Positions 6,341 to 37,681 of a stretch of 38,255 nucleotides of DNA are shown piece after piece. The stretch covers positions 1 through 38,255 of the forward strand of contig DVGK01000075.1 in the NCBI GenBank assembly GCA_018712785.1. Reading direction: 5' to 3'. Position numbers and translations under genes: made by a program. A model generated the notes under the pieces. That model did no database searches. It had not been told where the DNA came from and saw only the letters and a list, made by a program, of their open reading frames with translations. Origin of the DNA: Candidatus Choladousia intestinavium. GTDB taxonomy: Bacteria; Bacillota; Clostridia; Lachnospirales; Lachnospiraceae. Position 1 is the first letter of the stretch. Every line of letters begins with the position of its first letter.

Positions 6341-7399
6341 TCAGGACTCCCTGCTTCCCTGATACAGTTCATCCGCCATTTTAAGAACTACCTCCCGCAT
6401 TTCCAGGTTTTCCATGGAAAAAGAAGAAGAGATTTTTTCATACCCCAGGTAAGCCCCCAGAATATTTCCCGCCACAGCCCCTGTGGAATCACTGTCACCA
6501 TCGTGATTGACAGCAGCTGTCATGGCTTTGTGAAAATCCTCTCGAAATCGCAGGGCACAGTATACAGCTACCGCCAGGGCCTCATCCCCTGTCCAGCCCT
6601 CCCCCAGCTCTTTCAGGGCCTTCTCCGGATTCTCCTCTGTCTTTGAAAGAACCATGGCTTTCTCCATAAGTCCCTTAAATTTCGGCACCTGCACATTCTC
6701 CGGAAAAAGCTCCACCGCGAAATCCGCGGTCTCGTCCACTGCCTCCCGAATAATCTTTTCAAGGCCCTTTTCCGGCTCATACACCGCCCCGTTTACAATC
6801 AGGGCCAGCACGGCAGCCGGCAGGAAGCCAAGGACATGTCCATGGGTCTGAGCCGCGCAGAGAACTCCCGCTTTCAGAATCTCTGCTCTTGTATAACGCT
6901 CCGGAGAGTAAAACAGCCCCACCGGCGCTACCCGCATCACGCCTCCGCAGCCTTTGCTGTTGTTTACAGGCTCCTCAAGGGTTCCCGGCCCGTCTTCTCC
7001 GGAAAGGGCCGACAGACAGGTAAGGCCCGGCGCCCTTCTGGCATGAAGGGCCTTCACCTTCCAAAGCCAGGAGTATCTCTTCTTCACCTTTCTGCTGAAG
7101 ACCTGGGTATCATACCATTCCTTCATCAGCTCCCAAAGGGCAGCCTGCCACTGGGGGCTGTTTAGCTCTGCCCCCCGGCGTTTCCCCTCCAAGAGCCCTG
7201 CACCTGTAAAAAGAGTCATCTGGGTGTCATCCGAGATCACAGCCCTTCCTGTCTGGCTTTCCAGCTCCCGGATTCCTTCCGGACCGTATTTTTTCTGAAT
7301 CTCTTTAAGCTTCATAAACTCCACAGTATAACCCAGGGCATCTCCGGCGGCGCCTCCCACAAGGCAGCCCCGGAAAGCATCCTGCATCCCTCTTTCCAT
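6341..7399 (-). CDS. ADP-ribosylglycohydrolase (DraG/ARH family)
   Basis: A 352-residue protein starting at ATG 7399 behind AAGGAGGAGAAGG. Enzymes of this family remove ADP-ribose from modified proteins or other acceptors, using two Mg2+ ions. The metal-binding blocks are all visible: GGAAGDALGYTVEF near the N-terminus, VISDDTQMTLFTG at about 52-64, the NSKGCGGVMRVAPVGL block in the middle and NHDGDSDSTGAVAGNILGAY near the C-terminus. It is the last gene of a three-gene minus-strand set after a vWA protein and a macro domain protein. Both this gene and the macro gene act on ADP-ribose, so the operon probably reverses or scavenges ADP-ribosylation. The acceptor cannot be told from sequence. 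No ADP-ribosyltransferase is present in the window. Confidence 0.93.
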   Translation of the reverse strand: MERGMQDAFRGCLVGGAAGDALGYTVEFMKLKEIQKKYGPEGIRELESQTGRAVISDDTQMTLFTGAGLLEGKRRGAELNSPQWQAALWELMKEWYDTQVFSRKVKKRYSWLWKVKALHARRAPGLTCLSALSGEDGPGTLEEPVNNSKGCGGVMRVAPVGLFYSPERYTRAEILKAGVLCAAQTHGHVLGFLPAAVLALIVNGAVYEPEKGLEKIIREAVDETADFAVELFPENVQVPKFKGLMEKAMVLSKTEENPEKALKELGEGWTGDEALAVAVYCALRFREDFHKAMTAAVNHDGDSDSTGAVAGNILGAYLGYEKISSSFSMENLEMREVVLKMADELYQGSRES

Positions 7400-7431
7400 C
7401 CTTCTCCTCCTTACCCGCTCTCTGCCTCTCC

Positions 7432-8433
7432 CTAAAGCGTAGCCTGTCCAAAAGCAAAGAGCGTCTCATTAATCAAAAAGATATCATATTCGCCCGTTTC
7501 CAGAAAATATTTCAGAATCACATCCATTTTATTTGCCATAGACAGCGCGTAGCCTGCCCGTCCCAGAAGGTCCAAAGCCTCGTCCAGGGAGAGGCGGAGA
7601 GCCACAGCCAAAGACAGCACGTTCTGTTTTCTGGGAATATAATCCCGGTTGCTGCGGATCTTGGAAAACAGCTTCCGGTCCATATTGGCCCTTTTATAGA
7701 CCTCCACATCTGTATAGCCCTTCTCATCTATGAGCCGCAGAAGCATTTCCGAAAAGGTCTCTTCCTTCCTGGCAAGAAGCTCCTCCAGCGTTCTTTTTCC
7801 CGCCCCGGGCGCGGCTGAAGGCGTGTACGCTGGGGAGGATGCAGGCGCGCTCTCATAGGTCTGCCAGAATTCTCTCTGCGCTGCCCTGCTTCTTCTTTCT
7901 TCCTCCCGGGCATAGGCGTCGATATAGTGCTGTACATTCCGATACAGCTTTTCGCTGATCTCCACTGCTTTCCGGTCGAACACCACCAGGTAAAGCTCCA
8001 TCTCATGATCCTTCAGAAAGCTTCTGAAGCTTGAAATTGCCGTCTCCAGCGCCTCTTTTCTTGGATACCCGTAGATTCCCGCGGAAATCAGTGGAAAAGC
8101 CGCGGACCGGCATCCTGCCTTCCAGGCCAAAGCCAGGGCATTTCTGTAGGTCTTTGCCAGAAGCTCCCGCTCCCCATAGCCGCCTCCCCTCCAGATTGGT
8201 CCCACCGCATGGATGATATATCTGACCGGAAGCTTAAAGCCTTCCGTCAAAACAGCATGCCCTACGGGACAGGGAGCCAGGGCATCGCAGGCTTTCTGCA
8301 GCTTTTCCGCTCCCGCCCCGGCAAAGATGGCGCCGCAGACGCCGCCTCCCTCCTTCAGCATGGAATTCGCCGCATTGACCACTGCGTCTGTCTTCATGTT
8401 TATGATATTGTTATGTACAATCTGAAACGGCAC
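7432..8433 (-). CDS. Macro domain protein with C-terminal HTH-like domain
   Basis: A 333-residue protein with a GTG start at 8433, supported by GGGGAGG seven bases upstream. Residues 1 to about 160 are a macro domain: IINMKTDAVVNAANSML, GGGVCGAIF, then IIHAVGPIW and PLISAGIYGYP, the blocks that bind ADP-ribose and, in MacroD-like enzymes, remove it from proteins or deacetylate O-acetyl-ADP-ribose. A charged, then Ala/Pro-rich linker (about 170-215) leads to a helical domain (about 220-333). That domain contains YTDVEVYKRANMDRKLFSKI followed by SLAVALRLSLDEALDLLGRAGY, which looks like an XRE-type helix-turn-helix fold. So the protein may couple ADP-ribose sensing to nucleic-acid or protein binding. 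The DNA-binding role is inference. It lies 20 bases after the vWA gene and 32 before the ADP-ribosylglycohydrolase gene. Confidence 0.9.
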   Translation of the reverse strand: MPFQIVHNNIINMKTDAVVNAANSMLKEGGGVCGAIFAGAGAEKLQKACDALAPCPVGHAVLTEGFKLPVRYIIHAVGPIWRGGGYGERELLAKTYRNALALAWKAGCRSAAFPLISAGIYGYPRKEALETAISSFRSFLKDHEMELYLVVFDRKAVEISEKLYRNVQHYIDAYAREEERRSRAAQREFWQTYESAPASSPAYTPSAAPGAGKRTLEELLARKEETFSEMLLRLIDEKGYTDVEVYKRANMDRKLFSKIRSNRDYIPRKQNVLSLAVALRLSLDEALDLLGRAGYALSMANKMDVILKYFLETGEYDIFLINETLFAFGQATL

Positions 8434-14175: not shown

Positions 14176-15360
14176 TCATCGCTCCCGGGGGATTGCAAGA
14201 ATTCCGCTTCTCCGAATACTCTCCACTGCCTCCTTAAGCTGTTCCGGTGGCAATACCAAAGCCATCCGCACATATCCCTCTCCCAGACTTCCGAAGCTGC
14301 TTCCCGGAACACAGATCACGCCGGCCCGTTCCATCAGCTTCAAAGTAAATTCTACAGAATTCTGAAAGCCTTTGGGAATCGGTGCCCACACAAACATGGT
14401 TCCCTCACTGTCCGGCACCTCCCAGCCAATGCTTCGAAGTCCTCCGCATAATGCTCGGTTTCTCTCCTCATATTCCCTGCACTGGGAGAGTACGCTGTCA
14501 AAGGGGCCGTTCAGAGCCGCAATGGCTCCGTACTGAACGGGAAGGAATGTGCCGTAATCGAACTGGGTGCGCAGGGCTCTGAATTTCTGAATCAGCTCCC
14601 GTCTTCCCAAAGCAAAGGACATTCTGGCTCCCGTATAACTAAAGGTCTTTGACAGGGAATAAAATTCCACGCCCACTTCCTTAGCTCCCTCAAAGGCCAG
14701 AAAGGAAGTGCCTGTCTTCTCTCCGAACACCAAATCCGCATAGGCATTGTCATGAAGAATAATGATTTCATACTTCCTGGCAAACGCGATCAACTCCCGG
14801 TAAAAGGAATCCGGCGCTGTTTTGCAGACCGGATTGCCCGGGAAGTTTACAATCATCAATTTAGCCTCTCTTGCAATCTCGGCAGGGATATCTTCCAGCC
14901 TGGGCAAAAATCCGTTTTCCGGAAGAAGGGGATATTCCCAGACTCTGGCGTCGCAAAGCTTTGGACCTACAGAGAAAATCGGATACCCGGGATTGGGAAC
15001 CAGCACCAGATCTCCAGGGTCGCACAGCATCCAGCCGATATGGGCCATTCCCTCCTGGGAGCCGTAAAGGCTCATGATCTCATCCCTCTCAAGCTTTACA
15101 CCGAATCTTCTCTGATAAAAGTCTCTGACCGCCTCCAAAAGCGCAGGCAGATCCTCCAGAGCGTATTTATAATTTTCCGGATCCATGGCCGCCCGGCTTA
15201 CCGCCTCCATCACGTGTCTGGCTGGCTGAAAGTCCGGCGTCCCCACAGAAAGATTGTAGATCTTTTTTCCCTGAGCCTGAAGCTCATTCTTCTTCTCATT
15301 TAAAAGGGCGAAGATCCCCTCCTGAATTCTGTCTGCTTTCTCTGAAAACTGAATGTTCAT
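14176..15360 (-). CDS. PLP-dependent class I/II aminotransferase (LL-DAP/aspartate aminotransferase-like)
   Basis: A 394-residue protein starting at ATG 15360 behind AAGGAG. It is a fold-type I aminotransferase: KKIYNLSVGTPDFQPARHV near the N-terminus, the NPGYPIFSVG block, VNFPGNPVCKTAP, the HDNAYADLVFGE cofactor strand and the PLP lysine in FYSLSKTFSYTGARMSFALG. The C-terminus has EGYVRMALVLP with the substrate arginine. The closest match by eye is the group that includes LL-diaminopimelate and aspartate/alanine-type aminotransferases, but the true substrate is open. Its start lies 65 bases inside the end of the GtrA-YfhO gene, an unusually long overlap for this window, which suggests coupled translation. 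Confidence 0.9.
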   Translation of the reverse strand: MNIQFSEKADRIQEGIFALLNEKKNELQAQGKKIYNLSVGTPDFQPARHVMEAVSRAAMDPENYKYALEDLPALLEAVRDFYQRRFGVKLERDEIMSLYGSQEGMAHIGWMLCDPGDLVLVPNPGYPIFSVGPKLCDARVWEYPLLPENGFLPRLEDIPAEIAREAKLMIVNFPGNPVCKTAPDSFYRELIAFARKYEIIILHDNAYADLVFGEKTGTSFLAFEGAKEVGVEFYSLSKTFSYTGARMSFALGRRELIQKFRALRTQFDYGTFLPVQYGAIAALNGPFDSVLSQCREYEERNRALCGGLRSIGWEVPDSEGTMFVWAPIPKGFQNSVEFTLKLMERAGVICVPGSSFGSLGEGYVRMALVLPPEQLKEAVESIRRSGILAIPRER

Positions 15361-18300
15361 TCTCCCTGTCTCCTTCGTATTTCCACTGATTTTCTTTCCT
15401 GCCGTCTTTCTCTTCCCCGGCCATTGTTTCCGGAAGCTTGGATCCTGCTGACTCTTCCGGAAGATTCTCCTGGTTCTCTTTGCCGGCTTCCTCTTCAGAG
15501 AGGCGTTTTCCCGCAAACCAGGCCGGATGGCGCTTTTCCCAGATACCGGTAAGGAAAAACAGCAGCACGCACACAAGGCTTACGGCGCTTCCTTCCCAGA
15601 GTCCGCCCGGAGTATAAGTCATACGGATTTCATGCTCTCCTTCCTCCAGATGAAGGCCGATAAAAGTATCTCCCACTGTATAGAACTCGGCCGGAGCACC
15701 GTCCACCGTTATCTGCCACCCTTCATCATAGGGAATGGTCAGAAGAAGGGTTCCTGCTTCTTTTACATCCACCCGGCCGCTGATTTTATTTCCATCCACG
15801 GAAACGTCCGTCATCTGGCTCTCGGAAAGCTTGTCAATTACTTCCTGATACGCCTCGTTGGAGCAGGTGTAAACCTGGGCCTGCACGGTAGTCTGATTGT
15901 CATTCAGTTCTACTGTAAAGTCGGCCATATTGCTCTCTTCTGTACCGTTGATCACATAGAGATTGTCCGTGTAAGTGGTGTAGGTCCGGCTGTACTCCGG
16001 CGTGTTCAGATCGATGCTGGCCACCCTCGTATCAATGCACAGGTAAACCTGTTTATTCTCCGGAATCTTGATCCCGTAATTCTGCCCATCCTCCATGTCA
16101 ATATACCGGTCCAGGACAAAAATAGGCTCCAGTCCCGTAGCCAGCTCCACAAAGCTGTTCTGCACCTGCAGCGGCTCGGCAGCCTGAATATCCCAGTCCC
16201 GGATAGAATCCTGCACCATAAAGCCTATGGACAGAGCATTGTCATTTTTGTAAAGAGTCAGTTCCCCGTCCTGATCCACCTTCTCAAACTGGTACATGGT
16301 CTCCGCCTGGTTTACCGGAGAGGCTAAATATTTAATGCCGAACACATCGTTAAAGAGCTTGGTCACTCCCAGATACCCGTTTTTATTGGTACGTGCTTCA
16401 ATCCCCAGGCTCTGGCACAGGCGGATCACCGATTCCTGCATGGTGGAATTAAACATGACGATGGAATTGCCGCCGCAGAACATGGTTACGTTTCTCATCC
16501 TCTGCCGGTCCACCTCGCTCCGGTAAAAATCCGTATCTCCCTGAACCGCCATAAGATTCTGGTAGGATTCCTGATCCCCCAGATAAATGCTCCTGGTGAC
16601 GCCGCCGTTGGAGATAATCCCGTGGATGCCGTTGGCCGCCGTCTCACCGATCAGCACCAGGGACAGCACGCCGCACCAGAGGCGCCAGCCCCGGTCATGA
16701 AGATACTTGCCCGCCATCAGAAGGCCCAGATAGAGAATCAGCAGTCCCAGGGTGATCAGATAAATATACTCTTCCAACTCGCCGAACTGCTCCACAAAAC
16801 ACCAGCCCACAAAAGCTGCCGGAATGGCCCAGGCTGCCAGAAGAAATGGCAGCGGAATACTCTGCAGATGGCCCAGCACATCATAAGCCATAACCAGAAG
16901 CAGGGCAATATACAGAAATGCAAACCGGTTTGGAAGGCCGTTCTGCACGTGAAAACCATGCCAGATATAATTCAGAATATTAAAGGAAAAGCTCAGCAGA
17001 AGAAGGGCACACAGGGCGTAATGACCCAGTCTTTCCCGGAGCCGGATTTTCCGGTCAAAAAGATACAGCACCGCCAGCAGCACCGCCGCCACCGTACAGT
17101 ACACATTCAGTCCCACCTGGCTGTTGGAAATGTTCACCGGGTCGGTAAAGGCGAAATTACTCAGCATCATCTCCGCAAAGCTGGTATAGAACCGTATCAA
17201 GGTAGGAAAGGTATTGCCCTGCATGGACTCGGAGCTGGAAAGGCCCAAAAAGGCCGGCAGCAGCACCAAGGCCGCCATGCCGCCCGCCAGGAGGGAATAC
17301 CATCCGAAGGTCAGACAGCTTTTTCCCACCGCCTTAAGCCGGATTCTCTCCGCGCTGATCCACCGGACCAGAAAATACAGGCAGGAAAAAATGCAGAGCA
17401 TAAAACCGATATAATAATTGCACCAAAGGCCGTAAAATAAAGCGAGCCCGTAAAGCTTCCCGCTCTCCTGGCGTACAATCCTCTCGATCCCTTTCATCAC
17501 CAGAGGCAGAACCGCGATGCTGTCCAGCCACATCAGATTAAAGTAATACCCCAGAATAAAATTGGAAAGGGCAAACATCACCCCGAAGGCCGCAGGAAGA
17601 TACTTTCTCTCCGGATCCCGGTCGTGAAGATACCAGGAAAAGAACCCGCCGCACAGAGCGATCTTCAGAAGAATCATAACATCCATAAAATCGCAGACAT
17701 TTTCTGTGGGCACAAAAACCATAAGAAAATTCAGGGGACTGGCCATATAGTAGGCATAGGTGGACCAGAAATTATACCCAAACCCTCCGGAGATAGAGTA
17801 CAGCAGGGACTCGCTGCCTGCCAGCTTCTCATGAAAATCTGTATAGAAGGGCAGATACTGGTGGAGGGAATCTATAATCAGAAGGGTCTTATCCCCGAAG
17901 GGCCAGACTCCGATCACCGCGAAGCCGATGCCCGCCGCCAGGGCGGAAAGCAGGAATCCTGCCAGAAAGAAAAGCCTTCCCCGCCTTTTTTTCTCCAGGC
18001 TTTCGGCATCTGCCGGCGCGTCCTCCTTCTTAAATACCACGTATTTGCTGATGAGAAAATTCAGAACCAGAATCACTACCTGGATCAGTATTTTGGCAAT
18101 CATATCATTCATGCCCCAGATGATGCTTAAAAGCAGAACCCCCAGGATCTCCACCAGCATGGTCCCCAGACGCATGCCGATGAAGCCTCCCGCTTCTTTC
18201 AGAAGCTCCCTGAAGGATTCCGTCCTATGCTCAAAGACAAAATTTTTGTTTACCACATAGGCAAACAGAATCGCTGTGAAAATCGCCGCCGTATTGGCGG

Positions 18301-18418
18301 CTGTAATATCCATGCCCACAATCTGGCGAAGAATATAATACATCCCCAGATTCACCAGGGTGGAACATCCTCCGAAAAAGATATAACGCACTGCCTGGTT
18401 TTGATATAATTTTTTCAT
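15296..18418 (-). CDS. GtrA-YfhO fusion membrane protein
   Basis: A 1040-residue protein starting at ATG 18418 behind GGAGGAG. Residues 1 to about 130 form a four-helix GtrA-like domain (AVRYIFFGGCSTLVNLGMYY), the type that moves polyprenyl-linked sugars across the membrane. After a basic linker, residues about 145-620 hold many transmembrane helices of the YfhO/GT-C type, with the IDSLHQYLPFYTDFHEKLAG block typical of YfhO. Residues about 620-960 are mostly extracytoplasmic beta-rich sequence (including GYLGVTKLFNDVFGIKYLAS), then a final helix and a charged tail. YfhO in Bacillus glycosylates lipoteichoic acid using lipid-linked sugar. Here flippase-like and transferase parts are in one chain, so it may take up a lipid-linked sugar and use it on the outer surface. 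The polymer target is unknown. Confidence 0.88.
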   Translation of the reverse strand: MKKLYQNQAVRYIFFGGCSTLVNLGMYYILRQIVGMDITAANTAAIFTAILFAYVVNKNFVFEHRTESFRELLKEAGGFIGMRLGTMLVEILGVLLLSIIWGMNDMIAKILIQVVILVLNFLISKYVVFKKEDAPADAESLEKKRRGRLFFLAGFLLSALAAGIGFAVIGVWPFGDKTLLIIDSLHQYLPFYTDFHEKLAGSESLLYSISGGFGYNFWSTYAYYMASPLNFLMVFVPTENVCDFMDVMILLKIALCGGFFSWYLHDRDPERKYLPAAFGVMFALSNFILGYYFNLMWLDSIAVLPLVMKGIERIVRQESGKLYGLALFYGLWCNYYIGFMLCIFSCLYFLVRWISAERIRLKAVGKSCLTFGWYSLLAGGMAALVLLPAFLGLSSSESMQGNTFPTLIRFYTSFAEMMLSNFAFTDPVNISNSQVGLNVYCTVAAVLLAVLYLFDRKIRLRERLGHYALCALLLLSFSFNILNYIWHGFHVQNGLPNRFAFLYIALLLVMAYDVLGHLQSIPLPFLLAAWAIPAAFVGWCFVEQFGELEEYIYLITLGLLILYLGLLMAGKYLHDRGWRLWCGVLSLVLIGETAANGIHGIISNGGVTRSIYLGDQESYQNLMAVQGDTDFYRSEVDRQRMRNVTMFCGGNSIVMFNSTMQESVIRLCQSLGIEARTNKNGYLGVTKLFNDVFGIKYLASPVNQAETMYQFEKVDQDGELTLYKNDNALSIGFMVQDSIRDWDIQAAEPLQVQNSFVELATGLEPIFVLDRYIDMEDGQNYGIKIPENKQVYLCIDTRVASIDLNTPEYSRTYTTYTDNLYVINGTEESNMADFTVELNDNQTTVQAQVYTCSNEAYQEVIDKLSESQMTDVSVDGNKISGRVDVKEAGTLLLTIPYDEGWQITVDGAPAEFYTVGDTFIGLHLEEGEHEIRMTYTPGGLWEGSAVSLVCVLLFFLTGIWEKRHPAWFAGKRLSEEEAGKENQENLPEESAGSKLPETMAGEEKDGRKENQWKYEGDRENEHSVFRESRQNSGGDLRPFK

Positions 18419-25951: not shown

Positions 25952-27634
25952 TTAACATGTTTCAAGCTTTCTTTTTACCTTGCACCTCTTTTTAAAAAAC
26001 GCAATTCCATAGCAGAAAACCCAGTCATAGTCCTCTTCGAACTCCCGGGCATACATCCGCTCATCCATCTGGAGCAGAGCTTCGTCGCAGGAAGCCTCCA
26101 GCCCTTCCAGTGTCCGGGCGTATTTGGCCTCAAAAACCGCTACCCTGGCATTTACCGGGTCGTAAACCACCAGATCGCTTCGCCCCTCTCCGTGTTCACG
26201 GTTTGATTCCACTGTATATCCGGCTCCCGCAAAAATTCCAGCCAAAAACGCATGATAAAAATCTTCCCGATAATCATGATAGCTGATCGTCCGCCGGAGA
26301 AGCTTTGTCATTTCTTGAGAGACAGCTTCACTGTCCCCCTTCCATACCGCCTTAAACAGCTCCTTACGACTCCAGGTCTTTGACACATCAGCAAACCATT
26401 TCATAATCGTAGATTCAAAAATCTCACGGATCTCCGCATTTGGGATTTTCAGCGCGGACTCACCTCTCTTCAGATGCTGAGGGCCGCTTTTCTCCCGTTC
26501 CTTCGTAAGGTAACCGGTAAGATACAGAATGCTCCACAGATTATCTTCGGAGGAATGAAGATAATCGTAAGTAAGATCCTCCTCCACCTTCTGAACGATG
26601 GTTTCTCCTCTCATAAGAGCCTCCAGCTTCAGTGAAATACTGGAGCCGGCATAGTCAATAAAGGAGCGTATGACAGCGTTGTCGCTTGTGTTTTTCCAAT
26701 AGCTTCCCGGCTCGGCTCCGAGATCCGACTGCAGCTCCCGGACATAATTCATCACATCCCAGGGGCAGTATACATCCAGATCCCCAAAACAGTAACCATC
26801 ATACCACTCCCGAATCCGCTCTGCATACCCTTCAAGCCCTGTATCCTGCAGAATTTTTTCTATTTCCTTCCGGGTAAATCCGAAATATTCATTCAGTCTT
26901 GTAGACGAGATCGTATTTATGACAAAATTATTCGCGCCGCTGAAAATACTCTCTTTAGCAATACGCAGGCAGCCGGTGATAATGGCAAATCGCAGAGAGC
27001 TGTTGTCCTTCAGGGCTGTACTCATCATAGGGGCAATCACCCCCATCATTTCTTCGTAATATCCCTGGCTGCTGGCCTTGGCAACCGGCACGTCATACTC
27101 ATCCAACAGCAGGATCACCGGCTTGCCATAGTATGTCTCCATTAAGCGAAGCAGAATGCTGAGTCCCCGGCTTACCTGAGCCTGGCTCGCCCTGCCTTCC
27201 TTCAGCTGCAGAAAAATTTTTTTATCGTCCGGATCAATGGCCTCACACTCCAGAAGATACGCATGTGCTTTGCAGAAATCGGAAAACTGTATGCACAGCT
27301 GAGCATAGGCCTCCGCAAAGTCCTGCCCGGCCACATCCTTCAGAGTAAGAAACAGCGTCGGCCATTGATTCATCCACTTTCTGCAAATCTCACTGCATTC
27401 CAGAATCTCCAGACCCTCGAATAGATTTCTGCTGTCTTTCCTTATATCAAAGAAATTTGCCAGCATACTCATTCCTAAAGTCTTTCCAAATCGTCTCGGC
27501 CGGGTAATAAGAGTTACTTCCGCCGGCTGCGTATTCAGAAGTTCTGAAATCAGCCCCGTTTTATCCACATAGAAATACCCGTCTCTGCGGATTTTTTCAA
27601 AATCAGAAACCCCCACAGGAATGTTCAGCTTCAT
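25952..27634 (-). CDS. AAA-ATPase-like protein with C-terminal PD-(D/E)XK nuclease domain
   Basis: A 560-residue protein; ATG 27634 is chosen because GGTGGAG precedes it, and the reading frame upstream of it overlaps the neighbouring gene. The N-terminal part has LNIPVGVSDFEKIRRDGYFY and YVDKT, typical of the AAA-ATPase_like (DUF1703-linked) family, with Walker A RPRRFGKTLGMSML and Walker B ILLLDEYDVPVA. The C-terminal part carries a PD-(D/E)XK nuclease-like core: GRSDLVVYDPVNARVAVFEAKYA (Asp and E-x-K). These proteins are numerous in gut Firmicutes and Bacteroidetes, often in many copies per genome, and their function is not known; a mobile or defence-like role has been proposed. There is no sign of an insertion sequence around it here. 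Confidence 0.92.
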   Translation of the reverse strand: MKLNIPVGVSDFEKIRRDGYFYVDKTGLISELLNTQPAEVTLITRPRRFGKTLGMSMLANFFDIRKDSRNLFEGLEILECSEICRKWMNQWPTLFLTLKDVAGQDFAEAYAQLCIQFSDFCKAHAYLLECEAIDPDDKKIFLQLKEGRASQAQVSRGLSILLRLMETYYGKPVILLLDEYDVPVAKASSQGYYEEMMGVIAPMMSTALKDNSSLRFAIITGCLRIAKESIFSGANNFVINTISSTRLNEYFGFTRKEIEKILQDTGLEGYAERIREWYDGYCFGDLDVYCPWDVMNYVRELQSDLGAEPGSYWKNTSDNAVIRSFIDYAGSSISLKLEALMRGETIVQKVEEDLTYDYLHSSEDNLWSILYLTGYLTKEREKSGPQHLKRGESALKIPNAEIREIFESTIMKWFADVSKTWSRKELFKAVWKGDSEAVSQEMTKLLRRTISYHDYREDFYHAFLAGIFAGAGYTVESNREHGEGRSDLVVYDPVNARVAVFEAKYARTLEGLEASCDEALLQMDERMYAREFEEDYDWVFCYGIAFFKKRCKVKRKLETC

Positions 27635-27680
27635 CCAGTCCACTCCACCCTTTCTGCTCTGCCGCGTCTGACATTTTCCT

Positions 27681-28646
27681 TTATCTCTCGGTTCTCTCCG
27701 CCTGCCGCAGATCCCCGAACAGATCCGCCTGATAAACCCCTTCACGGATCAGCTTCCGGAAGCTCTCCACCACTGCCCCGTGATCCTCTTTGTAAGTAAC
27801 GCCAAACCACTTGTCCCTGGTTTCCAGCACCTTTACGGAAACCTTCCGCTCCCGCAGGAGACTGCCGATAAAAATCGGAAGAAGGTACTCGGCCTTCAGG
27901 GGATTTTCTTTTACAGCCGTCTCAAAAAATTCCACAAAGCCTTCTTCCAGAGTTTCCATAAACTCCGGCGTCAGCCCCCACATATTCATAGAAACGTAAG
28001 AATCCGGATCCAGAGGGCGTTCCCCGGCAAAGGCTGTCACCCTTCCGTCAGCCGGGTCTGTCCCCTTCACAATCTCCGGCGTCTCCCTTACGTCTGTAAG
28101 AAAGCCGTTCTCGTCCACCTGACAGATGCCCCGGGTCACGCCCCCGTGCTCACTGAGCGTATTCTTTAAAATAAAGCCGGCCATACAGAAATCCTTCGCT
28201 TTGTCAGGGGTATATTCCTGCAGAAAAGCATGAAGCTTTCCAAAGGCTTCCTTTCCATAATAGTCATCTGCGTTAATCACTGCGAAGGGCTCCTGGATCA
28301 GCTCCTTCGCCGCCAGCACAGCCTGTCCGGTTCCCCAGGGTTTCTTTCTCTCAAGCGGCAGCACCGCTCCCTCCGGAATGTCTTGTAGAGACTGAAAGGC
28401 ATAAGCCGTCTCCACATGAAGCTTCCGGCAGACCGCTTCGATCCTGTCGCCGATGGCCTCCCGGAAATCCGCCTCTATATCCCTGCGTATAACAAATACA
28501 ATCTTATTAAATCCTGCCTCTATGGCGTCATGAATGGAATAATCCATGATGATATGTCCGTAATCGTCCACTGCCGCCAGCTGTTTGATCCCGCCACCGT
28601 AGCGGCTTCCGATACCGGCCGCCATAATAATGAGCGTCGTATTCAT
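27681..28646 (-). CDS. NDP-sugar nucleotidyltransferase (pyrophosphorylase-like)
   Basis: A 321-residue protein starting at ATG 28646 behind AAAGGAG. The N-terminus is the nucleotide-sugar pyrophosphorylase signature: IIMAAGIGSRYGG with the following lysine in GGIKQLAAVD; AVINADDYYG gives the metal-binding aspartate. The family makes UDP- or other NDP-sugars from sugar-1-phosphate and NTP. The sugar is not identifiable. It has its own promoter and is the first gene before the AAA-ATPase gene, but the ATPase is probably not functionally related. Confidence 0.88.
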   Translation of the reverse strand: MNTTLIIMAAGIGSRYGGGIKQLAAVDDYGHIIMDYSIHDAIEAGFNKIVFVIRRDIEADFREAIGDRIEAVCRKLHVETAYAFQSLQDIPEGAVLPLERKKPWGTGQAVLAAKELIQEPFAVINADDYYGKEAFGKLHAFLQEYTPDKAKDFCMAGFILKNTLSEHGGVTRGICQVDENGFLTDVRETPEIVKGTDPADGRVTAFAGERPLDPDSYVSMNMWGLTPEFMETLEEGFVEFFETAVKENPLKAEYLLPIFIGSLLRERKVSVKVLETRDKWFGVTYKEDHGAVVESFRKLIREGVYQADLFGDLRQAERTER

Positions 28647-30501: not shown

Positions 30502-31902
30502 CTAAAGCACGAACAGCGCATACCCGCAGGCCGTCATCAGCACCAGAACGATGGCTGAAAGCTTCAGCCCCTCCTTCATCATGTAGCTTGGCTGAAGGCC
30601 GTACCCTACGGGAATCGCCCGGATCGAAGTAGGAAGCGTATAGGACAGATTAATGCCTATGGTAGCCACGTATACGTAGGGCAGCGGATCGAGCCCGATT
30701 CCCTGCATAATGGAAATCACAATGGGGATGGATACGGCCGCCGTAGCCGTATTGGAGGTAACGTCTGACAGCGCCAGAGTCAGAAGCACGATTACAAATA
30801 CCGTGGCTATGCCTCCCTCCAGGCCCATGCCGGAAACCATCTGTCCGATGGCCTCTGCCGCCCCGGAGTCGTTGATCAGCGTTCCCGCCGCCAGTCCGCC
30901 GGCGAAAATGTAGATCAGTTCCCAGATGATCTTGGACTGAACGGATTTCCAGACCAGCAGGCGGTTTCCATCTTTGTCCACGATCAGGAAGGAAATCACG
31001 GCGCAGATAATGAATACGTAAGCCGGCTTCAGTCCCGGCAGCATATCCTGATAAAACTGTCTCGTAAAAGAGAGAAGGGTGGCTAATAAAAACAGAGCCA
31101 GCGACATGGCTTCTTCCACATTCATGGGCGGCATATTCTTTAATTCCCTAGCAAAATATTCCGCTGAGCCTCCCAGCTCTTCCTTTCTGCCGATATCCCG
31201 CACCAGGAAAAGAAGGTTGCTGACCACAAGGACAATCATAATGGGCAGGAATTTAATCACCCACTCAATGTACATGTATTCCTCCCCGGTAAGCTGCTGG
31301 ATATAGTCCACCACCACCAGGTTCATAGCGCCCCCCAGGGGGGTAGCCAGGCCGCCCACGCCCGCCGCGTAGGCAATGGTAAGCAGGATCTTCGACGCGG
31401 TCTTGCTGCTGGCCACATCTTTTTCTCCAATGTAATTCAGCATGGAAACAGCGATGGGCGTTACAGTGGCGCACACCACCGCGTTAGGCAGAACCGCGGA
31501 CAGAACGGCTGATACAAGGAACCAGAACACAATCTGTTTTCTTAAGCCGCTGCCGATCAGATTCAGGAAACGGAGGGCAATCCGTTTATCCAGCCCCGTC
31601 CGCTCCCAGGAGACAGTCAGAATGGATGCTCCCAGCAGCAGCAGAATCGTCTCGGAAGCGTAGTTGGCGATGACGGACTCCATATCCGCCATCTGAATCA
31701 CGGCGTTCACCGCAATCGGCAGAAAAGCAGTCACAGCATAGTCCACCGGAGCCGTCACCCACCAGAAGGCCATCCAGGCCACGGTCCCCACCGCGGCTCT
31801 GCCGGCGAGGCCGGCAAAAAGGCTCTCAGGCAGGAAAAAGATACATGCCAGAAGCAGAAGGGGGCCCAAAATCAAATTTAAAAGTCTACGATTTTTTTTC
31901 AT
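30502..31902 (-). CDS. DASS-family (SLC13-like) carboxylate transporter
   Basis: A 466-residue membrane protein starting at ATG 31902, overlapping the adenylating ligase gene by 17 bases. It has about 12 hydrophobic segments in two halves, as in sodium/dicarboxylate symporters and antiporters (DASS). The second half carries the signature SDVTSNTATAAVSIPIVISI with the SNT motif that binds sodium and carboxylate. The equivalent place in the first half reads AVLPNAVVCATVTPIAVSM, with PNA instead of SNT, so ion coupling may differ from the classical symporters. It is the last gene of the Dlt-like operon. It could bring in or export the acid that is activated by the ligase, but the substrate cannot be deduced. 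Confidence 0.9.
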   Translation of the reverse strand: MKKNRRLLNLILGPLLLLACIFFLPESLFAGLAGRAAVGTVAWMAFWWVTAPVDYAVTAFLPIAVNAVIQMADMESVIANYASETILLLLGASILTVSWERTGLDKRIALRFLNLIGSGLRKQIVFWFLVSAVLSAVLPNAVVCATVTPIAVSMLNYIGEKDVASSKTASKILLTIAYAAGVGGLATPLGGAMNLVVVDYIQQLTGEEYMYIEWVIKFLPIMIVLVVSNLLFLVRDIGRKEELGGSAEYFARELKNMPPMNVEEAMSLALFLLATLLSFTRQFYQDMLPGLKPAYVFIICAVISFLIVDKDGNRLLVWKSVQSKIIWELIYIFAGGLAAGTLINDSGAAEAIGQMVSGMGLEGGIATVFVIVLLTLALSDVTSNTATAAVSIPIVISIMQGIGLDPLPYVYVATIGINLSYTLPTSIRAIPVGYGLQPSYMMKEGLKLSAIVLVLMTACGYALFVL

Positions 31903-33382
31903 TTTCTCTCAATCTCTTTCGCTGTAGTTTTCCGTTTGCGCTTCTGGGGATTTTATCAATGATTTCCACCTCTGCGGGAACGCGTCCAGGTTCAAGATTT
32001 CTTCTCAGATAATCCAAGAAATCCTTTTTATCGAATTTTTCCGGAGCATCGGCAGAAAGAAACAGCTTTGGAACCTGACCGCATACCGGATCCGCCATAG
32101 GAACACAGCAGCAGTCTGCAACACCTGCATACTTGGCGGCAGTTTCCTCGATTTCCTCTGGAGCGATCTTGATCCCCTTATAATTAATCACATCGTCCTT
32201 TCTGCCTAAAACATAGACGCGGCCCTCCTGGTCAATGTACCCAAGATCGCTTGTATACAGTACGCCATTTACCAGCGTCTCACGAGTCAGCTCTTCGCTG
32301 CCGAAATACCCGTTCATCATCATGCTGCCCGACACCGCAATCAGTCCCGGATTCTTCTTGGAGCTCACCATTTCCTGCCGCCGCTCATCCACAATCAGAA
32401 AGGACGCGTTTTTCGAGGGATACCCGATACAGCCGGTATCGTCAAAGGCATTAAAATCCAGGACACAGCTTCTTCCCGCTTCTGTTGAACCGTAAAAATT
32501 GTACAGTCTGGCATTTGGAAGCAGAGCCTTCAGCTGCTGCTTCGTACTGTCCTCCAGAAAGGCGGTTCCGATCTCCATGTATTCAATCCCGCCGGCATGC
32601 TGCTCCAGTCCTTTTCTGGCAATCTTTAAAAGCAGCTGGGCAATGGTAGGCGAAAGATCCAGCGCATTGACGCCGTAGGTATCCATCAGCCTGAAAAACA
32701 GCCCCACATTCATGACCCCGTCTGCCAAAACCACTGTGGCCCCGGAAAAAAGGTTCGCGTAGCAGGTCCTTAAGCCATGGGAATGACTTAAAGGCAGCGG
32801 AACCAGCTCCACCGTATCCGGCGTCATCCTCACACCGGCGCTGATGTTCTCGGCAATGGCCACATTGGCCCGGTCTGAGATCACGATTCCTTTAGGCTGT
32901 CCTGTAGTGCCTGTGGTAAACAATATCTCCGCTGCCCTTCGTTCTCCTGGCGCCTGTCCCTCTGTGCCTTCACAGTACTCTGCCCCGTCATCCGCGAAGG
33001 CCAGGCTCTCCTCCAGAACAGCAGACAGATCATAGAACTTCCCGACCCGGGAATAATCCGTTCTGCCGATGATGCACCTTGCTCCTGTAGCCGCGTAAAC
33101 TCTGCTTACCCGTTCTTCCGTGGCCTTTTTCTCCAGCGGCACAAACACCGCCCCCGCAAACCCACAGGCCAGATCGAGCACCAGATAGTCCGCGTCCTGG
33201 GTGCATTCTGCCAGCACAGAATCCCCCGGCTCTACACCGGCGGTTTCCAACCAGCAGGCCATCCGGCAGGCGGCCCTCTTCAGCTCCTTATACGTATACT
33301 GCCTGTCCTTATCGGCAACAGCGATTTTCTCCGGAAATCTCCTGCTGTTCTCCAGTACGGCAGCTGTAATTGAACTATACAT
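31886..33382 (-). CDS. Adenylate-forming acyl/aminoacyl ligase (DltA role)
   Basis: A 498-residue protein starting at ATG 33382, overlapping the carrier protein gene by 8 bases. It is an ANL-superfamily enzyme: P-loop ILFTTGTTGQPKGIV (153-167), YNFYGSTEAG (294-303), YTSDLGYIDQEGRVYVLGRK with the hinge, and the catalytic lysine Lys485 in SANGKLQR. It should activate a carboxylic acid with ATP and load it on the phosphopantetheine of the adjacent carrier protein. The order ligase/ACP/MBOAT/SGNH mirrors dltA/C/B/D, but the P-loop neighbourhood does not look like a typical D-alanine ligase to me, so the cargo may be a different acid. No thioesterase or condensation domain is present. Confidence 0.88.
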   Translation of the reverse strand: MYSSITAAVLENSRRFPEKIAVADKDRQYTYKELKRAACRMACWLETAGVEPGDSVLAECTQDADYLVLDLACGFAGAVFVPLEKKATEERVSRVYAATGARCIIGRTDYSRVGKFYDLSAVLEESLAFADDGAEYCEGTEGQAPGERRAAEILFTTGTTGQPKGIVISDRANVAIAENISAGVRMTPDTVELVPLPLSHSHGLRTCYANLFSGATVVLADGVMNVGLFFRLMDTYGVNALDLSPTIAQLLLKIARKGLEQHAGGIEYMEIGTAFLEDSTKQQLKALLPNARLYNFYGSTEAGRSCVLDFNAFDDTGCIGYPSKNASFLIVDERRQEMVSSKKNPGLIAVSGSMMMNGYFGSEELTRETLVNGVLYTSDLGYIDQEGRVYVLGRKDDVINYKGIKIAPEEIEETAAKYAGVADCCCVPMADPVCGQVPKLFLSADAPEKFDKKDFLDYLRRNLEPGRVPAEVEIIDKIPRSANGKLQRKRLRENEKKS

Positions 33383-33596
33383 ACCTTTCCACCAGACTTG
33401 TGATCGCGTCTACAGAGTTAAAATTTTCCGGAGTAATCTCTTCATACGGAATGTCAATATTCAGTTCATCCATCAGCTCCGTGGCGATCTCCACCAGGGT
33501 TACAGAATCAATCAAACCCCCGTCAATCAGCTCCGTGGAAGTAAAATCGATGGAATCATCTACGCTCATACAAATTGCCAATACTTTTTCTCTCAT
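33375..33596 (-). CDS. Acyl carrier protein (DltC role)
   Basis: A 73-residue protein starting at ATG 33596; the best ribosome binding site is AAAGGAA, eleven bases upstream. Ser31 in GGLIDSVTLVEIATEL is the phosphopantetheine attachment site, and the helix pattern fits a stand-alone carrier of the ACP/DltC type. It overlaps the ligase gene, so these two are almost surely partners: the ligase loads the carrier, and the MBOAT takes the acyl group from it at the membrane. No fatty acid synthesis genes are nearby, which argues against a role as the housekeeping ACP. Confidence 0.92.
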   Translation of the reverse strand: MREKVLAICMSVDDSIDFTSTELIDGGLIDSVTLVEIATELMDELNIDIPYEEITPENFNSVDAITSLVERYV

Positions 33597-33714
33597 CTTT
33601 TACAGTTCCTTTCCTAATCTCGTCAGCCGGGAAAGCCGCCCTGCCGCGGTTCCACGAAAACCTCTCTGCGCGCAGATACAATGCCCGCCTTCTATCATGC
33701 GCTCTGTGTCTCCG

Positions 33715-35355
33715 TCAAAACGCCCCGTAGACAAAGCTTGCCGCGTCAAATCCCGGCCCGTAGATTCCCAGAATCAACAGTGAAAACAGCGCTCCGTAAT
33801 AAAAGGCCCACCGGATCAGAAGCTTCTGGCTCCCGATCCGATCACGGATCGCCACGCCCCGCTCATGCAGAAAATCCACAAACAGCATAAGGATGACGCC
33901 GGCAGCAGCTACATAAAAATCCTTCTGGTCAAGGCCGTATGTATATAAGCTTCCGTCAAACAAGGTCCACAGACGGCTTTCCGCAAACATCTGCCTCCAC
34001 AGAAGCCCGCAGCCGGCCAGGCCGCCCGCCACTGTAAAGGTCCGGCCTATGGCAAACAGCAGATACGTCCTGAGGGCCTGAAAGGTCCGGTAGGCCTTTC
34101 TGTCCGTATGGATCTTCAGAACCCGGAGCAGCCTGGCAAAAAGTGGCTTCGCCTCCTTGGCTCCTGTCATCAGAACACACCAGTACAGGCCCCAGACAAG
34201 GTAGTCAATCCCTGTACCGTGCCACAAGCCCGTAAACAGCCAGACTGCCATAAGAGGGGCAAGGGCCTTCAGAAAGGAGGAAAGCCAGCGCTTTCCGCTT
34301 TTTTTCATCCGGCTCATATGCCTGACAAATTTAGGATTCATAGCAATAGGAAGATAGATATACTCTTTTGACCAGGCCCCCAAGGTAATATGCCACCTGG
34401 CCCAAAACTCCTGGGCGTCTCTGGCAAACAGAGGCTGACGGAAATTCTCGGCCAGTTCGATTCCCATAGCCTGGGAAATTCCTCTTACAAGATCCATACA
34501 GCCGCTGAAATCCGCGTAAAGCTGCAGCACACACAGAAGCACCGCGAGAAGGACTTCCACCCCGGCAAAATTTCCCGGGTCGTCAAATACCGCCGATGTA
34601 TACAGAACCAGCCGGTCCGCGACGATCATTTTCTTCATATAGCCCCAGAGCATCAGCTGCAGTCCCCGGCAGACCCGTTCATACTGAAAGGCCGGCAGAT
34701 TCTTCAGCTGCTTCAGCAGCGTCTCGTACTTGCTGATAGGGCCCTGAACAATATGCGGGAAATAAGTCATCACCGTAAAAAGATCCAGGAAATTATGCTC
34801 AGCCTTTGTCTTTCTCCAGTATACATCCAGAATATACCCGATGGCTGACAGGCTGTAATAGGAAATTCCCAGGGGAACAAGGATCCCCTTCCGCTGGATC
34901 ACCTCCGCCAGCGTCTCCACCGGCATCAGACCCGCCAGCCTTCCGATTTTAACAAAAATCCAGATTCCAAGTATGAAAATTAAGGCCGCGAGAAGATACT
35001 TTTTCGCCTTCCTTTTGTACGCCTGCAGACGAACCGCCTGTTCCCTGGGAGACAGCTCCTGTTTCTCTTCCTCGAAGCCCCGGTAAACCTTTTCCATCCG
35101 TCCTGCTGCCCAGTAGGTCGCCGCCGCTGTAACCGCTACAATCCCCGCGGCAGCCCAGCCGGACCAGAGATAAAACACAAGGTTTCCTGCCAGAATCCAT
35201 CTTTTTTTGATTCTGGGACTTCTGAGCAGAAAATACACGCACAGGAAAACGAACAGAAAAATGAAAAATATGGCTGAATTATATTCCATATCCGCTTTTT
35301 TCAGAAGGGCCGCGATATATTCCGTCCAGGTGTAATGCCAGGTTTCTTTTACCAT
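33715..35355 (-). CDS. MBOAT-family O-acyltransferase with C-terminal acyl-shuttle motif (DltB/DltX role)
   Basis: A 546-residue polytopic protein starting at ATG 35355 behind GAGGAG. The MBOAT core shows QLYADFSGCMDLVRGISQAM (about 278-297), EFWARWHITLGAWSKEYIYL with His322, and WLFTGLWHGTGIDYLVWGL with His379, the pattern of the AlgI/DltB branch. These enzymes take an acyl group from a cytosolic thioester and pass it through the membrane. The last six residues are FVYGAF (541-546), matching the FxYxxF hexapeptide whose tyrosine carries the acyl group outside the membrane. In Dlt this motif is on the separate micropeptide DltX; in other systems it is fused to the MBOAT, as here. Tyr543 is the predicted shuttle residue. 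The neighbouring SGNH protein would be the acceptor of the acyl group. Confidence 0.93.
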   Translation of the reverse strand: MVKETWHYTWTEYIAALLKKADMEYNSAIFFIFLFVFLCVYFLLRSPRIKKRWILAGNLVFYLWSGWAAAGIVAVTAAATYWAAGRMEKVYRGFEEEKQELSPREQAVRLQAYKRKAKKYLLAALIFILGIWIFVKIGRLAGLMPVETLAEVIQRKGILVPLGISYYSLSAIGYILDVYWRKTKAEHNFLDLFTVMTYFPHIVQGPISKYETLLKQLKNLPAFQYERVCRGLQLMLWGYMKKMIVADRLVLYTSAVFDDPGNFAGVEVLLAVLLCVLQLYADFSGCMDLVRGISQAMGIELAENFRQPLFARDAQEFWARWHITLGAWSKEYIYLPIAMNPKFVRHMSRMKKSGKRWLSSFLKALAPLMAVWLFTGLWHGTGIDYLVWGLYWCVLMTGAKEAKPLFARLLRVLKIHTDRKAYRTFQALRTYLLFAIGRTFTVAGGLAGCGLLWRQMFAESRLWTLFDGSLYTYGLDQKDFYVAAAGVILMLFVDFLHERGVAIRDRIGSQKLLIRWAFYYGALFSLLILGIYGPGFDAASFVYGAF

Positions 35356-35370
35356 TTTTTACAGTCTCCT

Positions 35371-37569
35371 CTAATTTACGAATCCCGCGTGGGCATCATC
35401 GCCGAATGCGGCAAAATCAATGACTTCCCCGGTATTTTTATTATAGACTGCCAGATTGATTCCTCTGATTCTCAGGGAATATTCCGCGTCATCTATCTCA
35501 ATCGAAGAAACACCGCCGGAATTCGTCCCGCTGCTGCTGACCTTATAAGAAAGCCCTTCCTCCTGAATCACCGCTCCCTGGGAATCAATCCTCTCCGTTA
35601 CAACCTCCCCGCCGTCAATGACGCCGATATAGGATTCACCCGTCTGGATTCCGCCAAGCTCCTCCAGTCCAAGCTCCGCTATCTGCTCTCTGTTCTCCTC
35701 ATCAAAGAGAAACGCCGCGTCTCCCTGAGCAGCCAGCAGAATAATATAGTTTTCATCTGACATTAAAGCGCTCAGATACTGATTCAGACCTGAGCCGTCG
35801 TAAGTCTCCATCTGCTGGTCCAGGCTTTTGATCTTATAAGAATCCTCCGCCCTGCAGTTATACAGATACAGAGATCTTAACTGTCCCGTCAGGTTCATAG
35901 GATCGGTTCCCGCTTCCAGCGCTTCCTCCAGGGCCTCCTCCAGATCCTGAGGCGTTCTGGTGGAAGAGGCGCAGGTGTCAAAATAAGCTTCGTCTACCAC
36001 CCTGCTGTTTTGATTGTCATATACGACGATATTCAGCCCTCGGTGCTCCGGAGAGTATTCTGTTTCCCCAATCACGCAGGAAGAAGTGTCTCCCATGGTA
36101 GCCCCGCCGCTGACCAGAGTGTAAAAGGCTCCGTCCGGCAGCTGGCCGCTGTATTCCAGCGGTCCTTCTTCCTCCTGAGTTTTCTCACTCTCCAGAGCGT
36201 TTTCCAGCAGCTCTTCCTCCAGGGCAGACTCAACGATTTCCAGATCGTTATTCAAACCGGCTGTATCACTAGTCCCCGTCTGTGCATCCGGGTCATGAGC
36301 GCTGGCCTCATAGACCACCTGTCCATTTTCCACAACCGCCAGGTAGGAATCTCTGTACTGCAGCTCTGAAAGCTTTTCCAGCCCCAGCTGAGCAAAAGCG
36401 TCTCTCTGTTCCTCCGTCAGAGAATAGGTTCCGTCGTCCATCACAGAGATAAGAATCGTATAATCTTCAAGGCTGCTGACTGTCTGAATGTATTCACATG
36501 GATCCTCAATAGCATTCAGTTCAATGGAAAGGATCCTTCTGTGATAGTCAGCTAAATCTTCCTCCAGGAAAGAATATTCCTCCATTCCCCGGACGTCTGT
36601 GGCATCGCAGTTTTCCGTGAGATACTGGCCGAACCAGTCCGTCAGCTTCGCCGCGCCGTAATAATTCATATGAGCCTCATCCCGGCTGTCCGTGGCCTCA
36701 ACATAGCCGGACTCCTCCAGATAGGGACTGTAATTAAAGTCAATAAAAGCCAGTTCGTAGTCATCCGCGATTTCCTGCACCGCATTGTGGGCGATATCCG
36801 TCCAGTTGGCGCTTCCCGGGGTTTTCGTCAGAATCAGCTCCAGCCCCTGCTCCTGGCAGAACTCAATCATCTTTTTCAGATAGAGCAGCGCTTCCTTCTT
36901 GAGGAGCTGTTTCCCCGCCTCCTCATCAGGAAGATAATCCGGAATCCCTATCTCCTGATACGCAGTATAATCAATGACCTGTTCCGTAGCGAAATTATAG
37001 CCTCTTACGCTGGTGTCCACATCATAGTCCAGGATCTCAAAGTCCGTGGCGTTCAGCTCCTTCCACCTGGTATGATAGGAAACAATGGGAAAAAGATAGG
37101 CAAGAAAATCATCCAGGGTATCCGTACACGCCTTGATGGCCTCCAGTTTGTTTCCCGAAAAGCGCATTTCCATGAGAGCCTTTTGATAATAGGCCTCATC
37201 CGGAATGCTCCGCAGCATGGAGACATCCAGCACCACAGTCTTCAGCGTATCGGAATGGTACTGGTAAGCCTCAGCCAGCCAATAGTAGGAGGCCAGCATG
37301 GGCTGCTGCTCTGTGGCAAGATTCCAGGCACAGATCCCATAATCCTCATACAGCTCCATAGGCGTAAAGCCATTAATGGCGATACTGGCCCCCAAAAAAA
37401 CCGTCTCAATGGTATTCTCCGGCTGCTCATAAAAGCCGTGAATCGTATCGTAATTATTCCATTCCAGCCAAACCGGCTGAAACAAAAGGTTTACTCCCCC
37501 AAACAGAAGAACTGATATAAGAGAAAATATACATACCCTGCCGGCATGAATAGCCTTTAAAATCTTCAA
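35371..37569 (-). CDS. Membrane-anchored SGNH transferase (DltD role) with repeated ILEI-like modules
   Basis: A protein of 732 residues from a TTG start at 37569, chosen because CGAGGTG lies six bases upstream; ATG at 37590 would give 739 residues but has no ribosome binding site. Residue numbers here use the longer form. An N-terminal membrane anchor (about 18-40) precedes an extracytoplasmic SGNH-like domain (about 60-330): VFLGASIAINGF with candidate nucleophile Ser69, and DEAHMNYYGAAKLTDW with Asp304/His307 of the DxxH motif. The rest (about 350-739) has two copies of a paired unit: ILISVMDDGTYSL to SYLAVVENG (377-424) plus HRGLNIVVYDNQNSRVVDEA (516-535), and IILLAAQGDAAFLF to SYIGVIDGG (616-661) plus IRGINLAVYNKNTGEVIDFA (708-727). 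These resemble the two halves of ILEI/FAM3 domains in swapped order. It probably moves the acyl group from the MBOAT tyrosine to a surface polymer. Confidence 0.85.
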   Translation of the reverse strand: MKILKAIHAGRVCIFSLISVLLFGGVNLLFQPVWLEWNNYDTIHGFYEQPENTIETVFLGASIAINGFTPMELYEDYGICAWNLATEQQPMLASYYWLAEAYQYHSDTLKTVVLDVSMLRSIPDEAYYQKALMEMRFSGNKLEAIKACTDTLDDFLAYLFPIVSYHTRWKELNATDFEILDYDVDTSVRGYNFATEQVIDYTAYQEIGIPDYLPDEEAGKQLLKKEALLYLKKMIEFCQEQGLELILTKTPGSANWTDIAHNAVQEIADDYELAFIDFNYSPYLEESGYVEATDSRDEAHMNYYGAAKLTDWFGQYLTENCDATDVRGMEEYSFLEEDLADYHRRILSIELNAIEDPCEYIQTVSSLEDYTILISVMDDGTYSLTEEQRDAFAQLGLEKLSELQYRDSYLAVVENGQVVYEASAHDPDAQTGTSDTAGLNNDLEIVESALEEELLENALESEKTQEEEGPLEYSGQLPDGAFYTLVSGGATMGDTSSCVIGETEYSPEHRGLNIVVYDNQNSRVVDEAYFDTCASSTRTPQDLEEALEEALEAGTDPMNLTGQLRSLYLYNCRAEDSYKIKSLDQQMETYDGSGLNQYLSALMSDENYIILLAAQGDAAFLFDEENREQIAELGLEELGGIQTGESYIGVIDGGEVVTERIDSQGAVIQEEGLSYKVSSSGTNSGGVSSIEIDDAEYSLRIRGINLAVYNKNTGEVIDFAAFGDDAHAGFVN

Positions 37570-37652
37570 GTTAACACCTCGGCTTCTCATTGGATTGTGT
37601 ATTTTCAGAAAACAGGCCGAAGTCCTGCCTCTTTTTCGTTTCGGACTTTTCC

Positions 37653-37681
37653 AGTATAGCAGAAAAATCTGTAAGCATCAA
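37653..37681 (-). promoter_or_regulatory. Promoter of the Dlt-like operon
   Basis: On the minus strand TTGATG (37681-37676) and TATACT (37658-37653) are separated by 17 bases. Transcription would start near 37646, about 77 bases before the SGNH protein start, and no strong terminator is seen until 30434-30478, so all five genes can be one transcript. Confidence 0.65.

Follow-up and report, generated by a model that had tools for sequence, protein, structure and literature searches.

A predicted importer-linked, carrier-dependent MBOAT-SGNH acylation operon in Candidatus Choladousia intestinavium and its relatives

To our knowledge, the described envelope acylation systems are supplied from inside the cell, with acetyl-CoA or D-alanine. 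The closest of them are the DltABCD(X) system, which comprises an ANL ligase, a carrier protein, an MBOAT protein and an SGNH protein and uses an FxYxxF acyl-Tyr shuttle, and PatA/PatB and other MBOAT-SGNH envelope acyltransferases, in which an MBOAT with a C-terminal FxYxxF has a separate SGNH partner. According to the available part of a 2025 paper (PMC12148441), the Tyr of the C-terminal FxYxxF of PatA carries the acyl group, whereas in Dlt the motif is located on DltX; MBOATs with a fused motif are described there as acyl-CoA users without a carrier protein, while carrier proteins pair with DltX. Here, we describe a five-gene operon on the 38,255-nt contig DVGK01000075.1 of Candidatus Choladousia intestinavium (GCA_018712785.1), the whole of which is called the window (contig C15 of a draft genome of 2.97 Mb in 160 contigs). 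On the minus strand, from 37590 to 30502, it encodes an SGNH protein, an MBOAT, a carrier protein, an ANL ligase and a DASS transporter. By sequence comparison it is assigned to a putative MBOAT-SGNH acylation system that uses a carrier protein, is linked to an importer and recurs mostly in Clostridia, in many cases from guts and rumens. The apparent novelty is the importer as part of such a system, exchangeable between DASS and ABC types; no importer-linked acylation operon was found described in the open-access literature searched (titles and abstract openings).

In the reading that we favour, with a probability of about 0.63, the DASS carrier would take up a small external organic acid, and the ANL ligase would adenylate it and then load it onto the carrier protein. 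The MBOAT would carry the acyl group through the membrane and hand it to the Tyr in the FVYGAF at its own C-terminus. The SGNH protein would accept it from this Tyr onto Ser69 and transfer it to a surface polymer, which the ILEI modules of the same protein perhaps hold. If so, the decorating acid would be imported by importers that have been swapped repeatedly, and gut bacteria would build their surface partly from molecules of their neighbours or their host. The division drawn in the available part of PMC12148441, with fused shuttles using acyl-CoA and carrier proteins using DltX, would also be broken.

An earlier note on this DNA had proposed a single five-gene run in which genes overlap by 8 and 17 bases and had counted the DASS gene as a functional part of it. 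The run and both overlaps were confirmed from the window's open reading frames (ORFs), the carrier gene overlapping the ligase gene, and the place of the DASS gene is supported by its recurrence with the core genes and by orthologues seen only in the operon. Relatives were collected by ligase and MBOAT searches, together with the best 80 of the 212 confirmed loci that two peptide patterns had found; the patterns exclude the ligase positions 205 and 242. Neighbouring genes were scored by phmmer with self-set thresholds, SGNH and carrier proteins being accepted at 25 bits. The clade comprises ligases with at least 345 bits to the window ligase, the latter included, and 90 rows remained after six duplicates or near-duplicates had been dropped.

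Within 8 kb of the ligase, 26 of the 90 clade rows had a DASS gene, 40 a TauT/SsuA-type ABC importer, one had both and 23 neither. For the 51 deduplicated complete SGNH-MBOAT-carrier cores (window included), the corresponding numbers were 19, 25, 1 and 6. Mapped onto the ligase tree, the importer type (DASS or ABC) requires at least 12 changes among 68 rows, two of these rows being from outside the clade. The exact gene order of the window recurs, being found at five loci including the window, and units of DASS and core genes also occur in several other orders. The exchange partner belongs to the families PF13379, PF00528 and PF00005, i.e., it is a binding-protein-dependent ABC system, a type that we know for uptake only. 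Since the importer is exchangeable with such a system, the cargo is probably imported. Outside the clade, where rows were not deduplicated, five of 29 ligases had an importer, namely three sodium:solute symporters, one DASS and one ABC. In L156-L158, a sodium:solute symporter gene (PF00474 in L158), representing a third type of importer, directly precedes related ligases whose pocket is different (HANRC/HASRC).

In addition, 250 family genomes were searched for the TauT-like binding protein, with up to eight candidates scored in each. It was found in eight genomes, seven of which have a clade ligase or an acylation operon. The gene lies inside the operon in G073, G182 and G326 and beside a clade ligase in G276; in G340 its contig is short, and an MBOAT match lies on a different contig. 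For the two binding proteins tested, the best model was SsuA_fam (aliphatic sulfonate), and the PDB matches were nitrate-transport, TauA and SsuA proteins with 30-46 bits. The relatives' binding proteins thus resemble those of TauABC/SsuABC importers, but all of them score below the family cut-offs.

The DASS protein was identified by PF03600 (165.5 bits, cut-off 31.9) and PF00939 (137.3 bits, cut-off 27). As in other DASS proteins (SLC13/VcINDY), the second of the two SNT motifs, which are substrate motifs, is retained, but the first is PNA, in contrast to SNT in the aligned SLC13 sequences. The protein forms its own orthologue group and scores below the TIGR00785 cut-off (164.9 vs. 198.6 bits). 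Orthologues with at least 63% identity were found in six of 144 relatives and in five of 250 family genomes, corresponding to nine different genomes. In all nine, the gene was seen only in the acylation operon; the next matches have 41-42% identity. A search of 295 order-level genomes at E 1e-150 returned the window's own copy only.

In 91 loci, the most frequent neighbour clusters were the ligase (88), the MBOAT (53), an ABC ATPase (42, partly generic) and the SGNH protein (42, second cluster 8), followed by the binding protein (40), the permease (33), DASS (26), the carrier (23, second cluster 4) and LysR (19). Beyond the core, the importer and LysR, no cluster occurred in more than 10 of the 91 loci, the next being a response regulator (10). 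Clusters were read by N-terminus and not by family search, so that diverse families may be split. A recurrent gene for the synthesis of a small acid was not readable among the 32 clusters displayed. The commonest enzyme-like clusters were a glycosyltransferase-like one (five loci) and several found in four loci, including pantothenate-type genes. In L181, L185, L227 and L234, genes read as panB, panC and DUF2520-like flank the clade ligase unit, a possible hint at the cargo. Of the 90 rows, 19 have a LysR gene near the ligase and four have a LysR-ligase fusion (Pfam confirmed one of each). These fusions (L209:7038-9566, L213, L219, L225) are single proteins of 815-842 aa, and in L209 the helix-turn-helix and the substrate domain were confirmed by Pfam; it is possible that they couple the sensing of the acid directly to its activation.

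Taken together, a regulated set for uptake and attachment without recurrent synthesis genes makes a scavenger the simplest reading. Alternatively, an ordinary cytosolic acid would be the source of the acyl donor, and the transporter would export a surplus or only balance its level. DASS carriers can in principle run in either direction, and for 23 of the 90 clade ligases an importer is missing within reach; both fit such a role. Against it stand the exchange for an uptake system, the repeated DASS/ABC switches and the fact that no recurrent synthesis gene was seen, so that export or balancing is considered unlikely. Similarly unlikely is a recycling role, in which the cargo is made inside and the importer retrieves acid released from the surface polymer by hydrolysis. 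Recycling would account equally well for the tight linkage and the LysR control; that no recurrent synthesis gene was seen speaks against it, and two unrelated uptake systems in the same position suggest primary supply.

Under the favoured uptake and attachment reading, the acyl group would pass through the MBOAT, which was assigned by PF03062 (36 bits, cut-off 27). Of its predicted catalytic His residues, His379 is present in 87 of 87 relatives and His322 in 86. FVYGAF forms the very end of the window protein. The loose form of the motif, [hydrophobic]xYxx[hydrophobic] at most three residues from the C-terminus, was found in 86 of 87 MBOATs of the collected loci compared to 32 of 1634 other ORFs of more than 200 aa. 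The operon therefore shares the MBOAT-borne motif and the separate SGNH partner with PatA/PatB-type systems, but it has a carrier protein and its own ligase, whereas those systems are described as acyl-CoA dependent and carrier-free in the available part of PMC12148441.

The SGNH protein consists of an N-terminal helix (8-36), the SGNH domain (approximately 44-331) and C-terminal ILEI modules. It has the predicted catalytic residues Ser69, Asp304 and His307. A strict regular expression for the SGNH motifs matched just 13 of 80 sequences and alignment columns were used instead; in 75 aligned relatives, Ser69 is conserved in 73 (two gaps) and His307 in 74 (one gap). The ILEI modules were detected by PF15711 with 74.9 bits (cut-off 27). 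Alignments with FAM3B/FAM3C place the halves of the window protein in the order B-A-B-A, which taken alone may also be read as a central A-B pair, and single-module relatives (e.g., L172, L175) have one B-A unit each. Both halves of the FAM3/ILEI domain are thus recognisable, but here they are swapped in order, repeated, fused to an SGNH domain and bacterial. All 20 ORFs matching ILEI were labelled SGNH (duplicates counted); this test is circular because the SGNH query itself contains the modules. A combination of ILEI with SGNH in bacteria was not found in the open-access literature searched. In L036:2985-4970, the SGNH protein of a DASS-type unit has a ricin-type lectin domain (PF14200, over the cut-off) and a sub-cut-off ILEI match.

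The four activities are those of Dlt, and the MBOAT is related to DltB and the SGNH protein apparently to DltD, which would fit an ordinary DltABCD D-alanylation operon. However, the NCBIfam equivalog scores are far below the cut-offs for the ligase (134.4 bits; DltA TIGR01734, 559.85), the MBOAT (136.4 bits; DltB TIGR04091, 375) and the carrier (30.3 bits; DltC NF003464, 68). In the available part of PMC8972799, the D-alanyl amine is contacted by Asp197 of DltA (B. cereus), and the methyl group sits in a small, hydrophobic cavity that includes a Met. The Asp column is Ser201 in the window ligase, and the Met column, taken as the methyl-pocket Met, is Arg205. On the ligase tree of 130 rows, 10 reference rows split from 120 operon-type rows with a support of 100. 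Two of the reference rows are over the DltA cut-off and the rest are lower-scoring DltA-model or PF00501 matches; the tree is a quick, midpoint-rooted one in which long branches meet at the root. Further differences from DltABCD(X) are the shuttle motif on the MBOAT instead of DltX, the importer and the ILEI modules. As to a separate DltX, the motif was found on the MBOAT, and the window ORF list excludes ORFs of less than 60 aa.

Furthermore, a Dlt-like operon separate from that of the window is located on contig C22 of this genome and comprises a ligase, a carrier, an MBOAT and, by phmmer, an SGNH-like protein. Its ligase (L052, G000:C22, 6533-8044) scores 277 bits, below the DltA cut-off, and has the amine-binding Asp with a Lys where DltA has Met; with such a pocket, the C22 operon may load another amino acid. 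Its MBOAT also has the shuttle motif, so that the combination of motif, carrier and ligase is not unique to the window family. An ordinary Dlt operon was rejected for the window on model scores, pocket and tree and is highly improbable. The earlier note had proposed a parallel system distinct from D-alanylation with a ligase unlike a typical D-alanine ligase; both points are supported by scores, the Ser for Asp in the pocket and the position outside the DltA rows.

The ligase was assigned by PF00501 (203.9 bits) and PF13193 (46.1 bits), and Ser31 of the carrier is conserved in 93 of 93 relatives. The top-scoring model for the ligase is a generic acyl-CoA ligase (269 bits, under its cut-off of 476), and L178, L180 and L185 have a ligase and an ABC importer without core genes in reach. 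Both would be expected if a catabolic acyl-CoA ligase and its importer stood beside an unrelated acyltransferase by chance. This is very unlikely, as the carrier gene overlaps the ligase gene and core and importer stay together through many gene orders. Among the clade ligases, Ser is found at the 201 column in 89 of 90 rows, Arg205 in 90 and Asp242 in 85. The ligases of the DASS and ABC groups agree in Arg205 (26/26 and 40/40) and largely in Asp242 (25/26 and 37/40).

Several observations weigh against the uptake and attachment reading. By the thresholds used, 23 of 90 clade rows and six of 51 complete cores are free of an importer, and four of these loci (L172, L192, L195, L231) have about 7.9 kb of flanking sequence on both sides; in L182, the sequence ends inside a binding-protein gene. 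In G226 and G244, the ABC importer lies apart with a LysR gene while the operon uses DASS, and in G153 it is separate from the operon, the ligase of which (L122) falls outside the clade. The Asp304 column of the 75 SGNH relatives contains 41 Asp, 30 Asn, 3 Glu and one gap, and some complete cores are possibly overcalled owing to the 25-bit threshold; this variability and the loose thresholds weaken the reading. Arg205 is also found in 27 of 29 ligases outside the clade and is not specific, for which reason it was downgraded as proof of a dianion. Because ligases were placed in the clade by their similarity to that of the window, the shared pocket residues partly reflect kinship, and L041 has the same DASS with a different ligase pocket (HANRC).

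Concerning the cargo, ANL enzymes require a carboxylate, hence an acid is expected, and the ligase pocket argues against an alpha-amino acid. A small organic acid scavenged from outside is the most likely cargo. Arg205 and Asp242 are similar to the Lys and Asp that occur as a pair in adenylation domains of the glutamate type, and dianions are the usual substrates of DASS proteins; both points favour a second acidic group. A dicarboxylic acid, as suggested in the earlier note, is one candidate among organic acids more broadly.

A more specific and tentative possibility is a sulfo-carboxylate such as 3-sulfopropionate, suggested by the sulfonate-type ABC importers and by the presence of a sister DASS gene in each of two sulfoquinovose clusters. 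Sister DASS genes (41-42% identity) were found at eight loci. In L287 and L290 they lie inside sulfoquinovose transaldolase-type (sulfo-TAL) clusters, and the DASS-like protein there is possibly a sulfonate carrier not yet assigned as such; the L287 cluster also contains DUF4867 and a GH31 that exceeds the PRK10426 cut-off. In L286 and L292 they are accompanied by succinate-CoA-ligase-type, acylating aldehyde dehydrogenase and Fe-alcohol dehydrogenase genes (TauE in L286), a cassette which could equally serve succinate. The stretches taken for L285, L288, L289 and L291 contained neither sulfoquinovose-type nor succinate-CoA-ligase-type genes. Sister and operon DASS differ in the second substrate motif, so that the same substrate cannot be assumed. 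Beside the acylation operons, the sulfonate genes other than DASS were an AdhE-like protein (L125) and weak single matches (L049, L161, L218).

In the available parts of the respective papers, 3-sulfopropionate is an excretion product of Enterococcus gilvus, with similar genes reported from gut Firmicutes (PMC11489063), and sulfoacetate is named as the excreted product of another pathway variant (PMC11659671). An envelope coated with 3-sulfopropionyl or sulfoacetyl groups, obtained by scavenging waste that gut microbes nearby release from sulfoquinovose or taurine, is conceivable but doubtful. It would give a permanently anionic, sulfonate-bearing surface polymer with a charge effect opposite to that of D-alanylation and tied to community secretions. 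Nothing related to sulfoacetyl groups on teichoic acids was found in the open-access literature searched. Sulfoglycolysis in the genome itself was rejected as a candidate: the sole DUF4867 gene found adjoins a sugar kinase and an isomerase (read by N-terminus). Of 11 sulfonate-cluster queries, 10 were empty on the 15 kb around this gene, other sulfonate genes not having been searched genome-wide.

The coordinates of the operon features are listed in Table 1.

Table 1. Features of the acylation operon in the window.
Feature	Position	Strand	Basis
SGNH acyltransferase-like protein, 739 aa	35371..37590	-	ORF, helix, fold, conserved residues
Two ILEI/FAM3-like modules (residues 356-548, 586-739)	35374..36525	-	Pfam PF15711; FAM3B/FAM3C alignments
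MBOAT acyltransferase, 546 aa, His322 and His379	33715..35355	-	PF03062
FVYGAF (FxYxxF) putative acyl-shuttle motif, MBOAT C-terminus	33718..33735	-	Pattern match in relatives; PMC12148441 (available part)
Acyl/aminoacyl carrier protein, 73 aa, predicted phosphopantetheine site Ser31	33375..33596	-	PF00550
ANL (AMP-forming) ligase, 498 aa	31886..33382	-	PF00501, PF13193
Ligase pocket Ser201, His202, Arg205, Asp242	32657..32782	-	Ligase alignment
DASS-type anion transporter, 466 aa	30502..31902	-	PF03600, PF00939
Promoter-like site 5' of the operon	37653..37681	-	Consensus match, not above chance

For the promoter claimed in the earlier note upstream of the operon, the consensus match is present, but its score did not exceed chance. 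A minus-strand terminator-like site was not found in the scan from 28000 to the end of the DASS gene. The genes following the operon encode serine dehydratase subunits and are outside the 32 commonest neighbour clusters of the relatives. PLSDB gave no match that would indicate a plasmid origin (near records of the same genome possibly excluded). The nearest named relatives by ligase are Lachnospiraceae-type metagenome-assembled genomes, the first being Candidatus Choladousia intestinigallinarum with 72% identity.

Elsewhere in the window, an AAA-ATPase-like/PDDEXK_9 gene is located at 25952-27745, and its cluster also occurs near the relatives L170 and L188. A protein of 1040 aa encoded at 15296-18418 combines a GtrA-like domain with a YfhO-type membrane protein, and an ADP-ribosylglycohydrolase gene at 6341-8433 adjoins a macrodomain gene.

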